From the NCBI GenBank assembly GCA_009780855.1, contig WQZG01000006.1, forward strand, positions 1 to 64,000: 64,000 bases of DNA, written 5' to 3'. This document shows, piece by piece, positions 36,500 to 64,000 of the stretch (positions are counted from its first letter, which is position 1; each line of letters begins with the position of its first letter). Origin of the DNA: Treponema sp. (GTDB lineage: Bacteria; Spirochaetota; Spirochaetia; Treponematales; Breznakiellaceae). The notes beneath the pieces are model-generated. The model was given only the letters and a program-made list of their open reading frames with translations, ran no database searches and was not told the DNA's origin. A program made the translations under genes and the position numbers.

Positions 36500-38698
36500 C
36501 TACTCAACCTTGAACCTGGACACTTCCTTGACCAGCATATCTATGCTTTCCTTGTTCTTCTCGCTGATTGAGTTGACTTCGTTTACGGCGATATTGATTT
36601 GATCGGCGCCAAGGGCCATCTCGTTCATTCCCCCGGTAATTTCCTGGGTAACGTTTTCGAGGTTCTTCCCTTCCTGGATTATTTCTTTTGAACCTTCAAG
36701 CATTTCTCCGGATCCGGCCTTAACCTGCTGGGTTATGTCGTTGACTTCTCCAATGGCCTGAAGTATCTGTTTGCTGCCTTCGCCCTGTTCTTCCATCGCG
36801 TTGCGGACGCTTTCTTCCTGCTCGGAGACGATCTTTACACCGTTATCAATCAATTCGAACTTGTTCAGTACATTTTCGGTGGAATGCATTATTTTTTCGA
36901 TTGATTCCTTGATTTTTTTGAGGACTGTCGAAATCGTCTTAGACTGCTCGCTTGAATTCTCGGCCAGCTTGCGGATCTCGTCGGCAACTACGGCAAATCC
37001 CTTCCCGGCTTCTCCGGCATGGGCCGCTTCGATCGCGGCGTTCATTGAAAGCAGGTTGGTTTGGCTGGCGATGTTTTCCATTACCGAGTTGATTTCCAGC
37101 AGCCCTTCTGATTCCCGCGAAATTTCTTGAATGTCGGCGGCAACATCCTGCAGACCGGTCCGGCCGTTCTCGGCGGATTCGGTAAGCTTTTTGACGTTTT
37201 CCATATTCTTCATCAGGGTCTGGGTGACCGACTGGACATTCGCCAGCATTTCTTCGATGGCGGACGAAGACTGCGCCACGCTGGATGTCTGCCTTTCAAT
37301 ATGCCCGTCCAGCTTGTCAATGTTGGCGGTAATTTGTTCCATGGTCGCGTTGGTTTCGGTCACACTCGCACTTTGATTGATAACCCGGCCCTTGATACTC
37401 TGAATATTCGCGGTAATTTCGTTGATCGCCGCGGCAGTCTCTGTCATGTTGCTTGCCAAATCATTGCCTATGTTCATGAGTTTTGCGGCCTGTTCTTTAA
37501 TGCTTATGATGAGGTTTCTGATTTTTTCGATGGTCTGGTTAAAATAATGCGCCAAATCCCCGATTTCATCCTTGGAACTGACAACTATACTGCGGGTCAG
37601 ATCACCTTCTCCTTCGGATATATCCTTAAGAGTATCCGCGACCCTTACTATTGGGTTTGTCATCCCGGCAAGGACAAAGTATATCCCGACTGCGGTTACC
37701 ACAACCGCGATGACAGCCAGTATAATGACAAACCTGGTTATATCGTTTACACCCTTTAGGATTATGTTTACATCATTGGAAACCATTACAGTCCATTGGG
37801 TATCAGAATCGCCTATGGTAAATGATTGCATGACAAGTTCAACAGTCGTGTTCAATACTGGTGAATAAAAACGGCCGTGGAAGGGCTTGGCGTTTACGAT
37901 TGACTGGAAAGCCTCATTTTTCCTGTCCCCGTAAATTGTTTCAACATCATTAAAGTTCTTGCCTATTCTGTCCGGCACATAACTGGCCAGGACAAAACCG
38001 GTATCTGTATATATCGCGAGGCCCGAAATTTCATCGTTATTCTGAATCATACTCATTACGGTAGTCTGCAGCGGTGATATATCAACGAGGCATCCGACTC
38101 CGCCTATAATTTGGGTAAAATCACCATTATAAACGGGAACTACAATTCTTAGAATATAAGTATCAACCCCGTTAAGAGTCCTTGCAGTGGGGTCTTCAAC
38201 CCTGGTTTTACTGGCGTTGGGCCCGGCAATCCAGTTCATGACGCCCTGTACATCGTTACTGTCCCTTAGGGCAATATTGTTGCCGGTCCTCTCCCAGGCC
38301 GCCGCGTACTGCCCGGTCGGAGTCGACCCGGCACGGCCGATATATTGCGCGTCCATGCCGTCCAGTGCGTTTGGTTTCCAGATAGTGTACAGCAGATTTA
38401 AATCCGGCTCCATTGATATGATACTATTCATCATCTCATCATAACGATCCCGTCTTGTCTCTGCCGGAATACTTTCAAAATCGCTCATTACATTGGCCAT
38501 GGTAGTAAGTATCCGTATATAGCCGTCTTCCATGCCTTTCCAGTACTCGGCGCGCCCGGTGGCCAGATAATTGAGCTTATCGACACTCAAATTTGTAGCA
38601 ATTTGCGAAGACTGCGAAAGTGACAAAAAAGAAAGCCCGGCAATAATAAATGCTATAATGCAGATAACTATTATGCTGAGTTTGAACTTAATCTTCAT
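36500..38698 (-). CDS. Methyl-accepting chemotaxis protein (dCache sensor)
   Basis: A 732-residue inner-membrane chemoreceptor. TM1 is near residues 7-29, a long periplasmic dCache-like sensor follows, TM2 is near 330-355, then HAMP ([14 protein letters not shown]) and the signalling domain with the hairpin-tip [18 protein letters not shown]. Short flanking Glu/Gln-rich helices carry the methylation sites. AGGAG precedes the ATG. Ligand unknown; it is a stand-alone receptor convergent with the helicase. Confidence 0.93.
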
Positions 38699-53699: not shown

Positions 53700-54464
53700 A
53701 TGTTATACCCGGGAAACGGAAAAGCACTGTTCATGCAGCTTAAAGACATTATTATGCAATGGATAGACTCCGGTGAACTTAAACCCAATGACAAGCTGCC
53801 CAGTGAACGGGTCCTGATGGGAAAATACAATATCAGCAGAGTTACGGTCAGATACGCCCTCAATGATCTTGTGCAAAAAAACATCATTATTAAAAAACAC
53901 GGCAAGGGATATTTTGTTTCTCCCCCGCAGAAGATAGAATACCAGCTCGACAGTCTTTTGGGTTTTATCGAAGAATTTACAATTAAAAAAATGAAATGTA
54001 AAATTTCCAGCCTTAAGCGGGAATTTTTGATACCTCCAAAAGAAGTGCGCTCGGCTTTTGGGACACAGCCGAATGAAAAAGTTTTTTTGCTTTCAAGGCT
54101 GATTTTTGTGGACAGGGAACCTTTGGCAATTGATAAAACATATCTTCCCGCCCAGGTCGCAGTTCTGCTGGAAAACATGAATTTAACAAACAGCATACTT
54201 TACAGAATTTTCGAAAAAAACAATTATAAATTGACGTTTGCAGATCAATGGATTAGCGCCGAAAAACCAGGCGCTGATGAAGCAAAATTACTTGGAATAA
54301 AATCCGGAGATCCAATTCTGGTCATTTACAGAAAAACCCATGTAGAAGGCAATGCAGTCCTTCTTTTTAGCCGTACAGTTTACCGCGCGGATCGTTACCA
54401 ATATTATATTACTCTAAAACGCTACCCGCAGAACCATATAGAGCCCCAGTTACCAAATGAATAA
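53700..54464 (+). CDS. GntR-family transcriptional regulator, HutC/UTRA type
   Basis: A 254-residue regulator. The N-terminal winged helix (about residues 10-75) contains LKPNDKLPSERVLMGKYNIS and VTVRYALNDL, typical of GntR. The C-terminal UTRA effector domain (about 95-240) senses a small ligand, often a sugar phosphate or amino sugar. NagR/DasR belong to this class, and two dre-like operators lie 2 and 3 kb away. It overlaps the HAD gene by 8 bp. The regulated ligand is unknown. Confidence 0.9.
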   Translation: MLYPGNGKALFMQLKDIIMQWIDSGELKPNDKLPSERVLMGKYNISRVTVRYALNDLVQKNIIIKKHGKGYFVSPPQKIEYQLDSLLGFIEEFTIKKMKCKISSLKREFLIPPKEVRSAFGTQPNEKVFLLSRLIFVDREPLAIDKTYLPAQVAVLLENMNLTNSILYRIFEKNNYKLTFADQWISAEKPGADEAKLLGIKSGDPILVIYRKTHVEGNAVLLFSRTVYRADRYQYYITLKRYPQNHIEPQLPNE

Positions 54465-55110
54465 ATATAGCGCGGTAATTTTCGATTTTGATCGTACGAT
54501 AGCCGATACCGAAGATGCCGTTCTTTATTGTCATGATCAAACATTGAGAAATTTTGGATACACGCCTTTGGATAAAAATAAATTTAAGCAAGTAATCGGA
54601 AAACCGGCTGATGTTCAGATAAAATTTTTAACAGGCGAAAATGATCCCGGGTTGATAAAAAAAATATCGGATTGGCATACAAAAATGTGTGACGAACACA
54701 TGAGCGAAATGACAAAATTTTTCCCTTATGTAAAAGAGGGATTAATTGAATTGCAGAAAGCAGGTATTAAAACCGGAATAATTTCAAACAAAAATCAAAA
54801 ATATATTATTACCCCCCTGGAGCGGGACGGTATTTTGCCCTTTATAAATAAAATTTATGGACCTGAACAAGTCAAAATGGCAAAACCCAATCCTGAGGGG
54901 CTGCTGCGCATGATAAATGAATTCGGCCTTGATAAAAGAGAAGTTTTATATATTGGCGACAGCCTTATTGATCAGGCGGCCGCAAATAATTGTGATGTAG
55001 ATTTTGCCGCAATGCTTACCGGCGGAACCGGACAAAAAGAATTTGATTTAAATGGCTCATATACTGCGGTTTTTAACCGGTTCTGCGACTTGATAAATGC
55101 TCTGATCTAA
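54457..55110 (+). CDS. HAD-family phosphatase (phosphoglycolate phosphatase-like)
   Basis: A 217-residue HAD hydrolase. Motif I is FDFDRTIADT, with nucleophile Asp and Asp+2, motif II is GIISNK, motif III Lys is in KMAKPNPEG and motif IV is YIGDSLID. The cap domain is of the alpha-helical C1 type. It dephosphorylates a small phosphate ester; the phosphodiesterase-regulator-phosphatase gene order suggests sequential removal of phosphate from one substrate. Overlaps the GntR gene. Confidence 0.87.
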   Translation: MNKYSAVIFDFDRTIADTEDAVLYCHDQTLRNFGYTPLDKNKFKQVIGKPADVQIKFLTGENDPGLIKKISDWHTKMCDEHMSEMTKFFPYVKEGLIELQKAGIKTGIISNKNQKYIITPLERDGILPFINKIYGPEQVKMAKPNPEGLLRMINEFGLDKREVLYIGDSLIDQAAANNCDVDFAAMLTGGTGQKEFDLNGSYTAVFNRFCDLINALI

Positions 55111-55125
55111 AAATTAATAATCTTT

Positions 55126-55620
55126 TTAATCCTGAACATCATCTTCCGGATTATTTCTGTTGCGTTTCTGTATAACTTTTTTAAATTTATTTAACGATTC
55201 GTGCAAAGACTTATCAACCTGCGGATCATAGGTTTCCGGTTCCGCGGCGGTTTCCGGCGGGAAGGCCGCGGCCGCGGATTTGGGCAGACCGGAGATGGGT
55301 TCGCGGCTAAGACAAAACGAAAGCCCCTGGATTTTTAATTCGGGGAATTTTTTCTGGAATATACCAAGCAGATATTTTTGCTTTGTCTGCAGAATCTGAA
55401 CCCAGCCCGGATGCTCTGCTTCGATCACGAGTATTCCGCGCTCAAGTTCCCTAATCCTGCAGTGATCACAGGCCGCGGAAATCTGGGCTTGTTTTGCCGC
55501 CGCGGCCCATGAATTGGAAAAGAGTTCAGCGGAGATTCGGGCGTTTTCCAATGTTTCCCGATCAAAACGTTCGCTGAACAAAGAAGTTAAAAGATCGCCC
55601 GCCTTCCTTACATTTTCCAT
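55126..55620 (-). CDS. dciA: DUF721/DciA-like protein
   Basis: A 164-residue protein with the DUF721 fold pattern (ELERGILVIEAEHPGWVQIL, QTKQKYLLGIF). DciA helps load the replicative helicase DnaB in bacteria lacking DnaC. It normally follows recF in spirochaetes; here a chemoreceptor intervenes, with 1 bp between its stop and this ATG. There is no ribosome-binding site, implying coupled translation. The C-terminal 50 residues are Pro/Glu/Lys-rich and likely disordered. Confidence 0.78.
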   Translation of the reverse strand: MENVRKAGDLLTSLFSERFDRETLENARISAELFSNSWAAAAKQAQISAACDHCRIRELERGILVIEAEHPGWVQILQTKQKYLLGIFQKKFPELKIQGLSFCLSREPISGLPKSAAAAFPPETAAEPETYDPQVDKSLHESLNKFKKVIQKRNRNNPEDDVQD

Positions 55621-55621
55621 T

Positions 55622-57721
55622 TCAACTGCGTATCTTGAACGGATTTATGGATTTCTCCAGTTGATCAACACCGGATCTGGTATTTTGCACTACCGCGGCC
55701 ACATTTTCGGAATTGGAAGTGAGGGATTTTGTATCATCGTTGCATTTGGTCACTTTCTCATCCACACTGCCGCTTAACTTCATAAGGAATTCGCAGGTTG
55801 TTACGGCTTCGCTGGCGCCGGCTTCCATTGCCTGTGAAGCTGTTTCTACATCGCCGGTAATGGCGTTAATGGCAGTAATCGACGAAAGCAGCTGGTTGGA
55901 ACCCAGACTCTGTTCTTCCGCGGCTTTTTTGAGTGTTGCCGTTATTTCTTCAATCTGCTTAATCATGGTAAGCATTCCGCCGAATGATACTTCCACGCTT
56001 CCGGCTGATATGGTGATTTCCTTAATATGTTTTTGAAGCGACTTGATAGCTTCCTCGGAACTTCTGGACTGCTGGGCTGTTGTCTCCGCGAGCTTGCGGA
56101 TTTCCTGCGCAACAACGGCAAAACCTTTGCCGGCTTCACCGGCATGGGCAGCTTCAATGGCGGCGTTCATGCTGAGCAGGTTGGTTTGTGTGGCAACATC
56201 GGAAATAACTTTGTTCATGACGGCAAGAGCCTGAGATTCTTTCTCAACCATTTTTGTCGCGTCCGCGGTTTCTGTCAGCAGTTTCTTTTGTTCGCCGGAG
56301 GAATGAACAAGATCCCGTATACGGTCATCAACCAGAACAGTACTGTTCTCTATCGAGTGAAGATTGGCTACCATTTCTTCTATTGCGGACGAAGCGCCGC
56401 TGATCTGGGCGCTCTGTTCCTTTATCTTAACATTCAGGTTTTCAATCTGGTTCATTACACTGTTAACGGCAGATTCATTCTTACCAATGGAATGATTTTC
56501 ATTCTCCACATCATTATGTATTGAATTAACCGTCTCGCTTACGTGATTAATAATGGTCTGGGTGTCATTAACCGATAACGAAAGATCTTCGGCAACTTTA
56601 TTGATGTGCCCTGCGGAATCCTTGATCTTGCGCACCAGACTGCTTATGTTGTCGTTAAAACTGTTGAATCCCGCAGATAGTTCCGAAGCTTCCCTGGAAT
56701 TATAATCCGGAATAATGGCGGTAAAATCACCGGACGAGATGATATTGAGCGAGGTAACCAGCCGTTTAAACGGGTTGGCGAGATAATTGCTTAACAACAC
56801 GGTAATAATTACGGCGATTACAGTCATGCCAAGAACTATCATGATGACAGTCAATAACAGCCGTCTCAGGCCGGCAAGAAGGCTGTCAGTAGAACCGGTG
56901 GATACCAGGATCCATCCGGTGGTTCCGACGGGAGCGGAACAGATATATACCTTGCCTTCAAAATCGACGGTTAAATCGGAGTTTAGTATGGTCTGCTTGT
57001 CCGCGTTGGGCATTACGGTAAACAGATTTTTTTGGAGTTCAAAGGACGAATCCGGGTGAACCAGAAATAATCCGTTGCGATCAATCAGCATTGTAAGGCC
57101 GTCATCGGTAATTTTTTCGCTGGTTACAAGTTCATTGAACTTGGCCAGCAGTACGTCAACACCCAGGACCCCGGTAATTTTTCCGGTCTCATCACTGACT
57201 GTAAGTGAGAAGGTAACGACCAGTTTACCGGTCTGTGCGTCAATATACGGATCTACAAGTACGATTTTGCCGGGATTGGCCATGGCTGCCTTATGCCAGG
57301 GCCGGTTCGGCGGATCCCAGGTATAATCCCATTCGGGATCAGTGTCCGGATTCCAGAGAGTGCTGGAAATCCAGAAACCGCCCGGACCGTACATTGAAGT
57401 TACCGAGCCGTAATAGAAGTCAAGCACATCCGGATTTGCGCTTTTGATGCTTGTCAGGACATCGTTCTTCAGCTCATTTGACGGCAATACATTGATATAC
57501 GTAGCGCAGCTCTGGATCATGTCATAAAACGGCGACAGTGCTCCTTCCAGATGCGAGGTAATGTACTGCATGGTAATACCGGCTTTTTCCTCGACGTTTT
57601 TTACGGTCAGGTTATTCATGTTTACATAAAAAATGGCTGTAATGGTAAACGAAAATACCAGAACCAGACACAAACAGAACAGCATAATCAGGATGGCCAT
57701 TGAAAGATGTTTCTTTTTCAT
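55622..57721 (-). CDS. Methyl-accepting chemotaxis protein within the dnaN-recF-dciA operon
   Basis: A 699-residue chemoreceptor: TM1 near residues 8-30, periplasmic dCache sensor, TM2 near 283-305, HAMP, and a signalling domain with [24 protein letters not shown] precedes the ATG. It begins 3 bp after recF and ends 1 bp before dciA, so it is embedded in a replication operon. The tip sequence is identical to that of the receptor at 36500 over [18 protein letters not shown], so both should work with the same CheA/CheW. Confidence 0.92.
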
Positions 57722-57724
57722 AAT

Positions 57725-58855
57725 TTATTCCTGTTTTAAAATTCCTGAATTTACAAAGTAAACCATTGTATCATTTTTACGGTAAAAATTATAGGGTTCT
57801 TCGGGAAGAAAGGTAAAGAACCCCTGGTCGTACTCCGGCATGAGCGCGATAAATTTTTTTCTTTTTTCGCCGTCAAGCTCAAGCAAAACATCATCCAGAA
57901 GCAGGACCGCCTTTTTGCCGGTTTTCTCCGAGAATATCCTGGCCTGGGCAATACGGAGCAGCAGGGCAAGAAGGCGGCGCTGGCCGGTAGAAGCTCTGGC
58001 GGAAAAATCCGCCGGTTCTGTAAATTCTTTAAAATCTTTTGAACCGGTTTTTCTGGTAAAGATATACCTGTCCCTGTGGGGCCCCGACATTGTTATTCCG
58101 GAAAAAAGATCATTTACCCTGCGGCTTTCAAGTACTGCCAAAACCGCTTCAGCAGTTTCTTCTTTCCAGGAAGGCAGATAATCTACCGCTACATTGTCCA
58201 GACCGGAAATTTCGCAGTACAGCGGCCGGAAGATCCCGGAGAAAACCTGCACCTCCCTTTGTCTTTTGCGCATCAGTTCCAGGCCGTACTGAACAAGCTG
58301 GGGATCAAGGGCATCCAGCAGCGCCGAAGTTTCCGCGGAAAGCTTGCCGCGGCTGCTGTCATTTTTTAAAATGCTGTTTCTGGTTTTTAAAACCTTGCGG
58401 TAGTTCTGCAAATCCCTAAGGTAGACAGGATCGGGCAGGCTTTGGGTCTGATCAAAAAACCAGCGCCGTCTCTCCGGAGACCCCGTTACAAACTCCATGT
58501 CCTCGTGGCAAAAAACAATGCACGGCGCGACAGACAGCAGGTCTTTGCGGTCTTCAACCCTTTTGCCGTCAAGAAAAATATTTTTTTTGCGGTCTTTATA
58601 AATTACCGAAATACCTGAATTTATCGTATCGTCCAGTTTTACCGTAACCGAAAAATCCCTGCTTCCGGTCCGGGCCAGTTCGCTGTCCTTTACTCCGCGG
58701 AAAGATGATCCGTAGGAAGCAAAATAGAGAGCTTCGATAAAATTTGTTTTTCCCTGGCCGTTTTCCCCGACAAGAAAAATATCTTTTGCGCCAGTATCTG
58801 TCCCGGCATCGCCAAGGTTACGGAATGAAACTGCCCTTAGTGATGTAAAAGCCAT
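57725..58855 (-). CDS. recF: DNA replication and repair protein RecF
   Basis: A 376-residue SMC-like ATPase loading RecA at gaps. Walker A is GENGQGKTNF near residue 31, an ASTGQRRLLALLL signature lies near 290 and Walker B is LLLDDVLLELD near 315. Length matches the family. It starts 9 bp after dnaN with no clear Shine-Dalgarno, suggesting coupling, and is followed by the chemoreceptor rather than dciA. Confidence 0.95.
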   Translation of the reverse strand: MAFTSLRAVSFRNLGDAGTDTGAKDIFLVGENGQGKTNFIEALYFASYGSSFRGVKDSELARTGSRDFSVTVKLDDTINSGISVIYKDRKKNIFLDGKRVEDRKDLLSVAPCIVFCHEDMEFVTGSPERRRWFFDQTQSLPDPVYLRDLQNYRKVLKTRNSILKNDSSRGKLSAETSALLDALDPQLVQYGLELMRKRQREVQVFSGIFRPLYCEISGLDNVAVDYLPSWKEETAEAVLAVLESRRVNDLFSGITMSGPHRDRYIFTRKTGSKDFKEFTEPADFSARASTGQRRLLALLLRIAQARIFSEKTGKKAVLLLDDVLLELDGEKRKKFIALMPEYDQGFFTFLPEEPYNFYRKNDTMVYFVNSGILKQE

Positions 58856-58864
58856 ATTCTGTTT

Positions 58865-59962
58865 TTAGTCTGTCTGCATCGGCATTACGATATGGAAAAA
58901 ATCTTCCGCTGGTACAGAACTGATTGTAATTGCTTTGGTAGGTTCGCTGAACTGAACGCTGATCTCGTCGGTCTTTATAACTTTGAGCGGTTCCTCAATA
59001 TACCGGTAATTGAGCGCTATCGAAATTTCTTCTCCGTCATATTTACACGGTATCTCTTCCCTTGCGTTGCCGATTTCGTTTTCTTCGCAGTAAACCGATA
59101 CCGTACCCGGATTAAGGCCCAGATAAACCCTGTGGGATTTTTGTTCCACCAACAGCGATACCCTTTTTAGGGCGTCAAGCATTTCCAGTCGGTTGGCCAT
59201 AAATGAATTAACCTGGTTCTCCGGAATTACACGCCGGTAATTTGGAAACTGTCCTTCAATAAGCACAGAAGATAATTTATATGCGCCGAATTGTATAAAA
59301 ATAGTTTTATCTGTCACCGAAATCTCAACCATGCCTTCGTCGCCGGACCTCTTCATGATAACGTTGAGAATCTTCGGCGGAATAATTACGCCGCTGAAGT
59401 CCTGTACTTCTTCTGCCGGTTTTGATATACAGGCCAAACGTCTGCCGTCTGTGGCCACCATGGAAAGTTTGCCTTCCGCCTTTTCAAAAAAGACCCCGTT
59501 CATAAAATATCTTGTCTCATCATCGGAAACCGCGAATACAGTCTGCCCTACCATACTTTTAAAATCTTTTATTGGTATATTAAAAAATTGGTTATTGGAT
59601 ATGGCAAATTCAGGATACTTTTCTGATGAAGTTACTTTTAACTGGAACCTGGCCTTTTTAACCGCTGTCTTTATTGTTATTTTGCCTTCTGACTGTTCAA
59701 AATCAAGGTCTCCCTCCGGAATGGAATTAAGGATCCCAAAAAATTTTTCTCCGAATACAGTCACTACTCCGGGCTCTACAACCTGTACAGGAACTTTTGT
59801 CTCAAAATTAACTTTCATGTCGGTAGCTTTAATTATAAGCTGATCACCGGCCGCTTCCATGTAAATATTTGAGAGTATGGAAATGACATTTCTTGAAGCG
59901 ATAATTTCGTTCGCAATTGCGATTTCTTTTAACAAAACGCTCCGGTTACAGGTAAACTTCAT
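58865..59962 (-). CDS. dnaN: DNA polymerase III sliding clamp beta subunit
   Basis: A 365-residue clamp of three similar domains. Conserved segments include DGRRLACI in the middle domain and the C-terminal HIVMPMQTD, which ends the protein like the MPM(R/Q) tail of other clamps. AGAAGGAG precedes the ATG. It lies 222 bp downstream of dnaA, on the same strand, and starts the dnaN-recF-MCP-dciA run. Confidence 0.96.
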   Translation of the reverse strand: MKFTCNRSVLLKEIAIANEIIASRNVISILSNIYMEAAGDQLIIKATDMKVNFETKVPVQVVEPGVVTVFGEKFFGILNSIPEGDLDFEQSEGKITIKTAVKKARFQLKVTSSEKYPEFAISNNQFFNIPIKDFKSMVGQTVFAVSDDETRYFMNGVFFEKAEGKLSMVATDGRRLACISKPAEEVQDFSGVIIPPKILNVIMKRSGDEGMVEISVTDKTIFIQFGAYKLSSVLIEGQFPNYRRVIPENQVNSFMANRLEMLDALKRVSLLVEQKSHRVYLGLNPGTVSVYCEENEIGNAREEIPCKYDGEEISIALNYRYIEEPLKVIKTDEISVQFSEPTKAITISSVPAEDFFHIVMPMQTD

Positions 59963-60184
59963 TGGAGGCTCCTTCTCTTATTATATTATATATATAAATA
60001 GTAATAATAGTAATAGTAAGCCGGAAATGTTGATAACTCATCTATTTCCTTATGTGATATGGAAATAATTTTTTGTTATCCTGTTGAATAAACATATTTT
60101 TTTTATATCATTTTCCACATTGATCACCATAAAAAATATCCCGGTAATAAACAGCTCATTTTTTAACCTCATATTAACACCATA
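59963..60184. other. dnaA-dnaN spacer with DnaA-box-like sites
   Basis: 222 bp, very AT-rich. TGTTGATAA at 60028-60036 (TTATCAACA on the minus strand) and TTTTCCACA at 60111-60119 are near-consensus DnaA boxes. It could form part of a bipartite origin or serve dnaN autoregulation by DnaA. Confidence 0.5.
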
Positions 60185-61624
60185 TCAACTCTTTACCCCG
60201 GACTCCCGGATTAGCCGCTGAAGGTTTTGTAATGTTGGTTCAAGGTTGGGATCTGTGCGTATCTGGTTGTCAATCTTGTCGCAGGAATGGATCACCGTCG
60301 CATGATCCCTGCCCCCGAACGCCTCTCCGATTTCTGTCAGTGAGTAACCGGTCATGTCCCTGGCCAGGTACATGGCTATTTGTCTGGGGAAAACGATGTT
60401 TTTGGTTTTCTTTTTTGCCTTGAGGTCAATGTATGATAAATGAAAAAAGTCCGCGACGACTTTCTGAACCTGTTCGATGGACATGTTGGGCTGTATGGGG
60501 CTAAAAAACTCCACTAGGGCTTTTTGGGTATTTTCATTATTGATTGGCTCATTTACAAGTTCAACATAGGCAAAGAGTTTATTGAGCGCGGAAATCAGGT
60601 CCCTTACATTTGACGAAATATTTTTGGCTATAAGGTCAATTGACTCGTCGGGAACCGGTATTCCCCTGTGCTTGATCGTTGACCTGATAATCGCGCAGCG
60701 GGTTTCGTAATTGGGCGGCTGAAGGTCTACATTGAGGCATGACTCAAACCGGTTTTTGAGGCGTTCGTGCATACTCTTGAGCTCGGATGCCGGCCGGTCG
60801 CAGGTAAAGGCGAGCATTTTTTTTTGGTCCATAAGCGCGTTGAATGTATAAAACATTTCTTCCTGGACACCCGGCTTGTCTCCCTGGAAAAAGTGAATAT
60901 CGTCAATTAATAGTACATCTGCCTGGCGGTATTTGTTTTTAAAAGCAGCCATTTTGTTTGGGCCGCCTGTAACCGGCATTGAAGAAATAAATTCGTTGAG
61001 GAAACCTTCCGCGCTTATAAAAATTATCTTGCTGTCGGAATTGGCGTAAATAAAATTTCCTATGGCCTGCATCAGGTGGGTTTTGCCCATCCCGACTCCG
61101 CCGTAAATTAGGAACGGATTATAGACTTTCCCCGGATTGCGGGCTATCGCCAGGGCGGCGTTGGCGGCAAAATTGTTATTTTCCCCTATTACATACTTGT
61201 CAAATGTATATTCTTCCCTTAATTGGGGATGTTTACCCTTTGCCGCTGCAATTTTACCTGTACCGGCAACTTTGCCAGTCTTGCCTGCTCCGGGTTTCCC
61301 TGTTTTACTGTCCTCGCTATTTTCGTTATTATTATCGGAAACTTCATTTTGATTTATCTGGCCCGGATCTTTATGAATTACCTCCAAAACTATCGAAATG
61401 TTCTTTCCTGTCAATTCCGCCATTTTCTCTTCCAGTCTTTTGTGGTATTTGGTTTTGAATTTTTCCTGGAAAAAGACCGATGGCACAGAAATTGTAATTT
61501 GGGTTTCTGTAGCGCCGATATAGTCCAGATTACTGAGCCATATGGTAAATTCACCCTCACCCAGCTGGAGCCGCAGCTGGCTGATCGCCTCATCCCAAAA
61601 GAGTTTATAATCCCATTCAGGCAT
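60185..61624 (-). CDS. dnaA: Chromosomal replication initiator DnaA
   Basis: A 479-residue initiator. Domain I ends near residue 85; domain II is a low-complexity linker rich in Lys, Gly, Ala and Thr; domain III has Walker A GGVGMGKTH and Walker B LLIDDIHF; domain IV ends with the DnaA signature GGRDHATVIHSC. ATG 61624 is chosen over an ATG-less extension to 61663 because AGGAG lies 6 nt upstream. Upstream DNA contains several DnaA boxes. Confidence 0.96.
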   Translation of the reverse strand: MPEWDYKLFWDEAISQLRLQLGEGEFTIWLSNLDYIGATETQITISVPSVFFQEKFKTKYHKRLEEKMAELTGKNISIVLEVIHKDPGQINQNEVSDNNNENSEDSKTGKPGAGKTGKVAGTGKIAAAKGKHPQLREEYTFDKYVIGENNNFAANAALAIARNPGKVYNPFLIYGGVGMGKTHLMQAIGNFIYANSDSKIIFISAEGFLNEFISSMPVTGGPNKMAAFKNKYRQADVLLIDDIHFFQGDKPGVQEEMFYTFNALMDQKKMLAFTCDRPASELKSMHERLKNRFESCLNVDLQPPNYETRCAIIRSTIKHRGIPVPDESIDLIAKNISSNVRDLISALNKLFAYVELVNEPINNENTQKALVEFFSPIQPNMSIEQVQKVVADFFHLSYIDLKAKKKTKNIVFPRQIAMYLARDMTGYSLTEIGEAFGGRDHATVIHSCDKIDNQIRTDPNLEPTLQNLQRLIRESGVKS

Positions 61625-61932
61625 CGGGATCTCCTGATTTTTTAGATTTTTGAAGGACAACAATGTTCACCGGAAAAATACCCCTTTATCAACAAATTAT
61701 CAACAATAAATAAAATTACAGCCTGTCCGCCATTATACACAAATTCAGAATAATTGGAACAGTACACCTTTAAATCTGAATAGTAATATCAATTAATTCT
61801 TTGTAATATAAGGAATTAACCGCTATCAATATTTTCCCCGATTTTATGTATTTTCTTCCGTGGTTTTTTGTATTTATTACTAAAAAAACCAAAGATTTAT
61901 CCACAACTTATTCACATTATGGGCCATTTCTG
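61625..61932. other. Probable replication origin (oriC) with DnaA boxes
   Basis: About 310 bp, strongly AT-rich. DnaA boxes are TTATCAACA (61686-61694 and 61697-61705), TTATACACA (61733-61741), the perfect TTATCCACA (61897-61905) and TTATTCACA (61908-61916), all in one orientation. An inverted repeat TGGTTTTTT/AAAAAACCA (61861-61869 and 61883-61891) sits just before the perfect box. No protein gene is seen. Position upstream of dnaA supports an origin. Confidence 0.7.
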
Positions 61933-61975: not shown

Positions 61976-64000
61976 TCAATTTCTGCCCTGGGCCTGTCCC
62001 TGATTGGAACCCTGGTTTTGATTGTTATTTGTAATTGTAACCGCCGCAGTTGCTGATTTTGATGTATCTGCCGCAGAAGTGGCTGTTACATACAGTGTTG
62101 TTGAAAATTCGTTGGGCGCCACTGTAAGCAGACCGTTTGCGCTGATATTAGTCCCCGGCGCCATGGAACCTGTCCCTGCTGGGTTTGAACTGACTTTCCA
62201 TGTTACCGCGTTATTGGAATTATTGGAACCTGCAACCGCTGCCCTAAACTGCATTGTCTCATTCGTCTTCATTGAGGCGCTCGCGGGGCTTATTGTAACT
62301 CCTGTTATGCCGGGTGTCGGAGCCGGAGATGGAGCAGGTCTTGAAGGAGTCTGAGGTCCGGGATTAGGCTGCGGTGCGGGCGCCGGGTTTGGCTGCGGAG
62401 CCGGGGCCGGTGCGGGCACAGGAGTTGGTGCGGGATTGGGCGCCGGAGCCGGTCTTGCCGGAGGCTGCGCTGCTTTTACAATTGTGACTGCCGTGCTGCC
62501 GGATTTTGAAGTATCAGCCGTTGAAACCGCAAAAACATAGACAGAGGCAAGCGTTTCATTGGCAGAGACAGTAAGCAGCCCGTTGGCGCTGATGCTTGTT
62601 CCGCCGGTGACAGAACCGGTGCCGGCGGCATTGGAGCTGACTTTCCAGGTAACCGTACCGGCAGGATTATTTGTACCGGTAACCGCAGCGCTGAACTGTA
62701 ATGCAGCGCCGGCCGTTACAGACGGGTTTGCCGGATTGACGGTTACGCCTGTAACTGCAGGGGAGGGAGGCGGCGCAGGTTGCGGCGCGGGTTGCGGCGC
62801 AGGCGGCTGGGGCCTCGGATTGGGCGCTGGCTGAGGCTGCGGATTAGGTTGCGGCGCAGGCTGCGGCGCGGGTCTTGAGGGAGGCTGCGGTCCGGGATTG
62901 GGCGCCGGAGCAGGCGCCGGAGACGGCGTCGGCCTTGCTACAGGCGGCGTGATCTTTGCTATATTGACGGATACACTGCCGGATTTTGAAGCATCAAATG
63001 TTGAAACTGCAAAAACATAGAGCACCGTCGCGGTTTCGTTGACAGAAACTGTAAGCAGTCCGTTGGCGTTAATGGCTGTACCGGCTGTGACAGTGCCGGT
63101 GCCGGCGGCATTGGAACTGACTTTCCAGGTAACCGTATTGGGCGGATTGTTTGTACCGCTGATTGCCGCGCCGAACTGAAATGTAGAGCCAGCCGATACT
63201 GTCTGGCCGGCCGGACTTACTGCCACGCCTGTTACTGTCGGAATAACAACATTTAACATGACAATACCTGATTTGGACGTATCATAGGCGGATGTCGCTA
63301 TTACATAAAGGACAGAAACAGATTCATTGGCCGCGACCGTAAGCATACCGTTGGCGTTAATGCCGGTTCCCGGCGTGACTGCTCCGGTGCCGGCGGCATT
63401 GGAACTGACTCTCCAGGATACTGAAGTGTCGGGATCGTTGACGCCTGTAACAGCGGCGCTCAACTGTACGGAAGAACCTCCCCATACTGACTGGCTTGGG
63501 GAATTAACTGTAACACTTGTAACAACCGGCACTACAACAATGACCTGGGCGCTGTCTGATTTTGAAGGATCCAGCAAGGAAGTCGCAAAAACATAAAGGG
63601 TGGTTACAGATTCGTTAACCGCTACCCTAAGCAGTCCGCTGCCGTCGATGCTGGTTCCCGATGTTACGGCTCCGGTACCGGTAAAATTGGAACTTACCTT
63701 CCAGGTAACGGCGTTATCCGGATTATTGTTGCCGTAGGCCTCGGCGCTGAACTGCAGGGATCTGCCCCTTGCAAGCGATATATTTTTTGGGACTATATTT
63801 ATTCCGGCCACTGTTACAACTCTTATCTGCCTTATTCCTGTGGCTTCGGTTCTTTGGGATCTTGCTATAATGTAGATTACAGAAGCTGTTTCGTAAGGCG
63901 ATACCGTCAAAAGTCCGTTGGCGTCAATATAGGTTCCCGCGGTTAAAGGCCCTCTGCCGTCGCTTGTTGAACTTACCGTCCAATAGACATCCGGGGAGGA
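61976..64000 (-). CDS. Large Ig-like (Big) repeat protein with proline-rich linkers (5' end beyond window)
   Basis: The visible 674 residues are the C-terminal part of a longer open frame. They contain five complete and one partial Ig-like domains of about 90 residues, each with the pattern TVTWKVSSNAAGTG, then ISANGLLTV, then LYVFAVST-DTSKSG. Two Pro/Ala/Gln/Asn-rich linkers (roughly 65 and 53 residues) separate the last domains. The tail is Gln/Asn/Gly-rich. The architecture suggests a surface or adhesin-like protein; the export signal would be upstream of the window. A strong terminator follows. Confidence 0.75.
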   Translation of the reverse strand, partial: SSPDVYWTVSSTSDGRGPLTAGTYIDANGLLTVSPYETASVIYIIARSQRTEATGIRQIRVVTVAGINIVPKNISLARGRSLQFSAEAYGNNNPDNAVTWKVSSNFTGTGAVTSGTSIDGSGLLRVAVNESVTTLYVFATSLLDPSKSDSAQVIVVVPVVTSVTVNSPSQSVWGGSSVQLSAAVTGVNDPDTSVSWRVSSNAAGTGAVTPGTGINANGMLTVAANESVSVLYVIATSAYDTSKSGIVMLNVVIPTVTGVAVSPAGQTVSAGSTFQFGAAISGTNNPPNTVTWKVSSNAAGTGTVTAGTAINANGLLTVSVNETATVLYVFAVSTFDASKSGSVSVNIAKITPPVARPTPSPAPAPAPNPGPQPPSRPAPQPAPQPNPQPQPAPNPRPQPPAPQPAPQPAPPPSPAVTGVTVNPANPSVTAGAALQFSAAVTGTNNPAGTVTWKVSSNAAGTGSVTGGTSISANGLLTVSANETLASVYVFAVSTADTSKSGSTAVTIVKAAQPPARPAPAPNPAPTPVPAPAPAPQPNPAPAPQPNPGPQTPSRPAPSPAPTPGITGVTISPASASMKTNETMQFRAAVAGSNNSNNAVTWKVSSNPAGTGSMAPGTNISANGLLTVAPNEFSTTLYVTATSAADTSKSATAAVTITNNNQNQGSNQGQAQGRN

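Follow-up and report, generated by a model that had tools for sequence, protein, structure and literature searches.

A chemoreceptor gene within the dnaN-recF-dciA operon of an uncultured relative of termite-gut treponemes

Replication operons and the genes that enter them

The gene for DciA, the replicative helicase loader/operator, belongs to the replication operon in 15 of 23 phyla, Spirochaetes included, as far as the available part of the survey by Brezellec et al. (2016, PMC5109545) goes. Position next to recF or gyrB is a tendency of the DciA family and no strict criterion. Genes foreign to replication have also been met in this operon: in Mycobacterium smegmatis, MSMEG_0002, encoding 6-phosphogluconate dehydrogenase, lies in the dnaN-recF-dciA region (PMC5720831, from the part of the article at hand). 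In the available parts of the literature on chemoreceptors or methyl-accepting chemotaxis proteins (MCPs) together with recF and dnaN, PMC2650404 included, an arrangement with a chemoreceptor was not found described.

Such an arrangement is present in the window, the whole 64,000-nucleotide stretch of DNA analyzed here, which comes from one uncultured relative of termite-gut treponemes. Its minus strand carries, in this order, dnaA (60185-61663), the sliding clamp gene dnaN as the first operon gene after dnaA (58865-59962; Pfam PF00712/PF02767/PF02768), a full-length recF (57725-58855; identified by Pfam, its C-terminus aligned with those of relatives), a chemoreceptor gene of 699 aa (55622-57721) and, as the last operon gene, dciA of 164 aa (55126-55620), and the operon is closed by a convergent HAD-family hydrolase gene on the plus strand (54457-55110). 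From dnaN on, the spacers are 9 nt (dnaN-recF), 3 nt (recF-receptor) and 1 nt (receptor-dciA), so that the first-pass annotation, which had placed a chemoreceptor 3 bp past recF and 1 bp before dciA on the same strand, was exact in coordinates and geometry. The identification of dciA rests on a PF05258 match of 29.8 bits (cut-off 24) that covers only positions 39-89 of the 89 in the profile.

Compared with the dnaN-recF-dciA operon in the accessible portion of PMC5109545, the window has the same genes in the same order, on the same strand and beside dnaA, but differs in the receptor between recF and dciA and in the lack of a following gyrB, the place after dciA being taken in the window by the HAD-family gene. 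dciA thus adjoins neither recF nor gyrB. The likeness to MSMEG_0002 lies in the presence of an unrelated non-replication gene in the operon of one species that is located elsewhere in a relative; that gene, however, is a metabolic one and sits between dnaN and recF according to a figure legend in the part of PMC5720831 available. The insertion in the window is accordingly a further case of genes entering the replication operon, already known in kind.

The genes are probably read as one transcript. Terminator-like sites were found at neither the recF-receptor nor the receptor-dciA junction, and one minus-strand stem lies within the receptor gene (57443-57422). A promoter-like site with a 10-of-12 match within recF (57817-57788) could give the receptor and dciA a transcript of their own, but such hits are weak and not in excess (20 sites against 15.5 expected), and an internal promoter for the receptor was discarded on these grounds.

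Occurrence of the arrangement in the family

The family was sampled with 195 genomes from 56 genera, the genus of the window being represented by its one genome, and recF was found in 131 of them. We surveyed 133 other recF neighborhoods and sought DciA by iterated profile search; recF genes that were fragmentary or cut by contig ends (G185, G112, G119, G004, G127) were omitted, as were the second pieces of split genes, and 80 named loci from the same assemblies were kept out of the counts. In 91 of the 133 loci dciA starts no more than 60 nt from recF or overlaps it; in six it starts further off, in 33 it was not found in the stretch, and in three the contig was too short. The expectation that dciA usually follows recF directly in spirochaetes therefore holds as a tendency, in 91 of the 130 family loci that were long enough, and is also in print for Spirochaetes in the part of PMC5109545 consulted. 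The recF-dciA link, a common marker of the replication operon, is nevertheless loose in this spirochaete family, dciA not having been found near recF in 33/133. Loci of this kind include L137, L141 and L156, and PF05258 occurs elsewhere in nearly all such genomes (38 of the 39 genomes searched, a set made up of the genomes without dciA near recF and six controls).

A receptor between recF and dciA was seen in none of the 133 other family loci, and the arrangement is therefore not general in the clade. This result, together with closest relatives in which recF and dciA are mostly joined, supports the earlier proposal that a signaling gene was inserted without disruption of the operon. A receptor homologue near recF occurs in one other locus (L140, Breznakiella), after dciA, and in L083 a distant receptor is encoded on the opposite strand, some 3 kb upstream of recF. 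Unrelated genes other than the receptor also enter the operon. In L197/L036 recF and dciA are separated by an OmpA-family gene on the same strand, in L159/L047 by a guanylate-cyclase-domain gene on the opposite strand and in L202/L088 by MnmE and PAP2 genes (paired numbers denote the same assemblies, as judged from equal gaps); recF and dciA are more than 60 nt apart with no clear gene between them in L187/L065, and L180 has a short gap of 122 nt. The OmpA-family case of Treponema sp. Emb289P3bin52 (G042; L036:3877-4797) is an independent insertion, again on the same strand, into this junction in another genome of the family, but dciA there follows after about 63 nt and the tight stop-start junction of the window is absent.

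In a recF tree the window clusters with G033, G028 and G023 (95/90), and a FastTree phylogeny of dnaA, dnaN and recF, which does not contain G033, places it with G007, G028, G023, G038 and G072 (0.998). In G028, G023, G033, G038 and G072 dciA begins at or over the recF end; in G007 the DciA match is on a different contig from recF. Because recF and dciA are joined in the closest relatives, except G007, the simplest reading is that the insertion happened in the lineage of the window itself. The junctions themselves suggest where it occurred. In G023 the recF end runs into the dciA ATG as AAAAGAAAATTATGGATAATGTA, the start of dciA reading ...AAAATTATGGATAATGTA; the corresponding stretch in the window, at the receptor start, is AAAACAGGAATAAATTATG, reading ...AATAAATTATG, and dciA begins with ATGGAAAATGTA. 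Since both arms resemble the uninterrupted form of G023, the insertion point would be the old dciA start codon, to judge from this one sequence pair. The N-terminus of DciA is M-K/R-x-AGD or close to it in most relatives, and an extra M-D/E-N-V is common to the window and G023.

The exactness of these joins also bears on whether a receptor contig was misjoined into the operon during assembly. The genome is a draft of 3.97 Mb in 201 contigs with 5.9% contamination, and its gene order recurs in no second genome, but both joins coincide exactly with gene boundaries (spacers of 3 and 1 nt) and leave every reading frame intact, G+C is alike in the receptor (0.464), recF (0.470) and dciA (0.479), and the dciA of the operon is the single copy found in the genome, which makes such an error extremely improbable.

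Source and placement of the receptor gene

The receptor sequence is that of a complete dCache-HAMP-MCP protein, with the domains expected of a normal array member and no feature that links it to replication: the protein matches the MCP signaling domain PF00015 at 105.6 bits (cut-off 34.6), the dCache_1 sensor PF02743 at 88.9 bits and HAMP PF00672 at 25.5 bits (cut-off 25). The genome contains 13 MCP-signal matches, two of them within the inserted receptor, and four CheW-domain matches. A second receptor gene in the window, a distant paralogue of 732 aa, lies on the same strand at 36500-38698 (MCP match at 36653-37195), some 23 kb from the putative origin.

An orthologue search of the order gave matches at E up to 1e-120 in 13 of 291 genomes, all inside the family, and members of the close orthologue set show 42-55% full-length identity and lie in unrelated genomic places; in genus g53 the orthologue has conserved neighbors of its own. 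A recently inserted paralogue was considered and rejected, as the best identity to other receptors of the window's genome is 35%. Composition gave no sign of horizontal insertion (receptor G+C 0.464 against 0.460 for the window), and that candidate was dropped as well. Because the orthologues lie elsewhere and the genome holds no close paralogue, the receptor is probably a relocated old, unduplicated gene and not a fresh duplicate. We therefore favor, with a probability of roughly 0.72, a reading in which an old dCache chemoreceptor gene of vertical descent moved into the recF-dciA junction in this lineage only, as tolerated gene shuffling, with dciA translated by reinitiation. The receptor would serve the normal chemotaxis array, its placement having no regulatory link to replication, and the arrangement as a whole has the look of ordinary gene shuffling, not of a new control system.

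The locus of Breznakiella homolactica RmG30 complicates this picture. An orthologous receptor, likewise of 699 aa, follows dciA directly there on the same strand and thus adjoins dciA as in the window, but it lies past dciA and the spacers are wider (recF and dciA are separated by 147 nt, dciA and the receptor by about 160 nt). A receptor of this lineage was seen beside dciA in these two genomes only, before dciA in one and after it in the other. Two unrelated relocations fit this placement poorly: by our estimate, a randomly placed gene in a 4.6-Mb genome would come to lie about 1 kb or less from dciA with a chance below 1 in 1,000 per genome, so that an ancestral neighborhood or some preference is conceivable. 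In the receptor tree the position of the window has a support of 43/87, at which one relocation and two are not separated.

If the ancestor shared by Breznakiella and the window's clade already had the receptor by recF and dciA, a local swap in the window and departures in other lineages would explain why both genomes have the orthologue beside this gene pair and on its strand. Breznakiella, however, lies outside the window's clade, the members of which (G028, G023, G038, G072 and, by the recF tree, G033) have recF and dciA joined, and G028 carries its receptor at 1.74 Mb; this history would call for several independent losses or moves, and we regard it as unlikely. It is quite unlikely that the receptor lineage was recruited, that is, kept beside dciA and the origin, where synthesis in step with growth or replication, through co-expression or dosage, would be of benefit. 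Two members of one receptor lineage adjoin dciA, and the orthologue is about 22 kb from recF in G084 and about 112 kb in G052, but such distances in drafts can be measured for same-contig pairs alone and are biased accordingly. Against recruitment also stand the two complete genomes with the orthologue at 1.74 Mb (G028) and 1.45 Mb (G037) and recF at 3 kb in both, and the presence of the lineage in 13 order genomes with a position beside dciA in only two. The same complete genomes leave the suggestion of the first-pass annotation of a coupling between receptor dosage and replication, or of selection for near-origin copy number, without positive support; the origin-proximal dosage of the receptor is a fact of position, with no evidence of selection. 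More speculative still, and very improbable in our estimation, is that the receptor lineage was brought beside dciA twice, on opposite sides and in two treponeme lineages, owing to a benefit of tying its synthesis to the helicase loader and to origin-proximal dosage, which would make it a chemosensory input to replication initiation.

Translation of dciA and the surroundings of dnaA

On relocation into the junction, the receptor would have come to occupy the former dciA start, directly after a ribosome-binding stretch at the recF end. At 57722-57738 (minus strand) an AGGA-like motif within the end of recF is followed by TAA-ATT and the receptor ATG at 57721; the duplex energy with the assumed anti-Shine-Dalgarno (SD) sequence is -4.3 kcal/mol, and the motif, which may formerly have served dciA, is probably now the ribosome-binding site of the receptor. 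The coding sequence of dciA would thus have been retained and its upstream signal lost. The earlier observation that dciA has no ribosome-binding site of its own is borne out by a duplex energy of -0.2 kcal/mol with the assumed anti-SD sequence, compared with -6.3 at the median of 97 relatives. Before dciA, 90 of these have an SD-like sequence with an energy of -2 kcal/mol or lower, the other seven being above -2. Where recF and dciA overlap in relatives, the SD-like stretch of dciA lies within recF. Missing SD sequences are common in the window: the first start of 18 of its 49 ORFs is above -2, and recF has +0.4. Among its first 25 codons dciA has an in-frame start that scores -4.3, but from a reading of the sequence its use would delete the conserved KAGD block.

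In 54 of the 97 relatives recF and dciA overlap by 4 nt, an arrangement known for tight translational coupling (PMC6728339, available part), and because of this the coupling of dciA to its upstream gene is probably ancestral, only the partner having changed. Reinitiation or coupling needs an overlap or very short spacing (the part of PMC10666635 at hand), and the receptor-dciA junction (55616-55643, minus strand), which has no SD sequence, reads TGA-A-ATG, with the stop and start 1 nt apart. Most likely, ribosomes finishing the receptor would restart 1 nt on and translate dciA, as they formerly did in coupling to recF, and the proposed dependence of dciA translation on the receptor is plausible on this geometry. 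If this coupling is real, the translation of an essential replication protein hangs on a dispensable sensory gene, and the locus would be a clear natural case of insertion tolerance in an essential operon.

The stop and start of this junction lie within a weak hairpin (-6.0 kcal/mol in a 30-nt segment), which was rejected as a coupling device because it is not significant, shuffled sequences doing as well in 14 of 200 cases for this segment, 57 of 200 for 49 nt and 151 of 200 for 120 nt. At five loci of the family (L158, L159, L187, L230, L241), where dciA is at least 19 nt from recF and has no SD sequence, an AT-rich stretch resembling TATGTTAT/TATGATAT stands just before the dciA start and is perhaps the promoter of a leaderless transcript.

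DnaA-box-like sites are found on either side of dnaA, at 60028, 61686, 61697 and 61897, and put the putative origin in close vicinity to the receptor. Along the minus strand, the dnaA-dnaN spacer (59963-60184) contains TTATCAACA and, after a GC stretch, TTACTATTACTATTATTACTATT with an AT-rich run behind it, and resembles an origin with a DnaA box and a DnaA-trio; three of the sites listed are further DnaA-box-like sites upstream of dnaA (61686-61905). Adjoining dnaA on the far side, from 61976 to 64000 and beyond, is the gene of a large protein containing bacterial Ig-like domains (Big_2) in repeated copies as well as proline-rich spacers.
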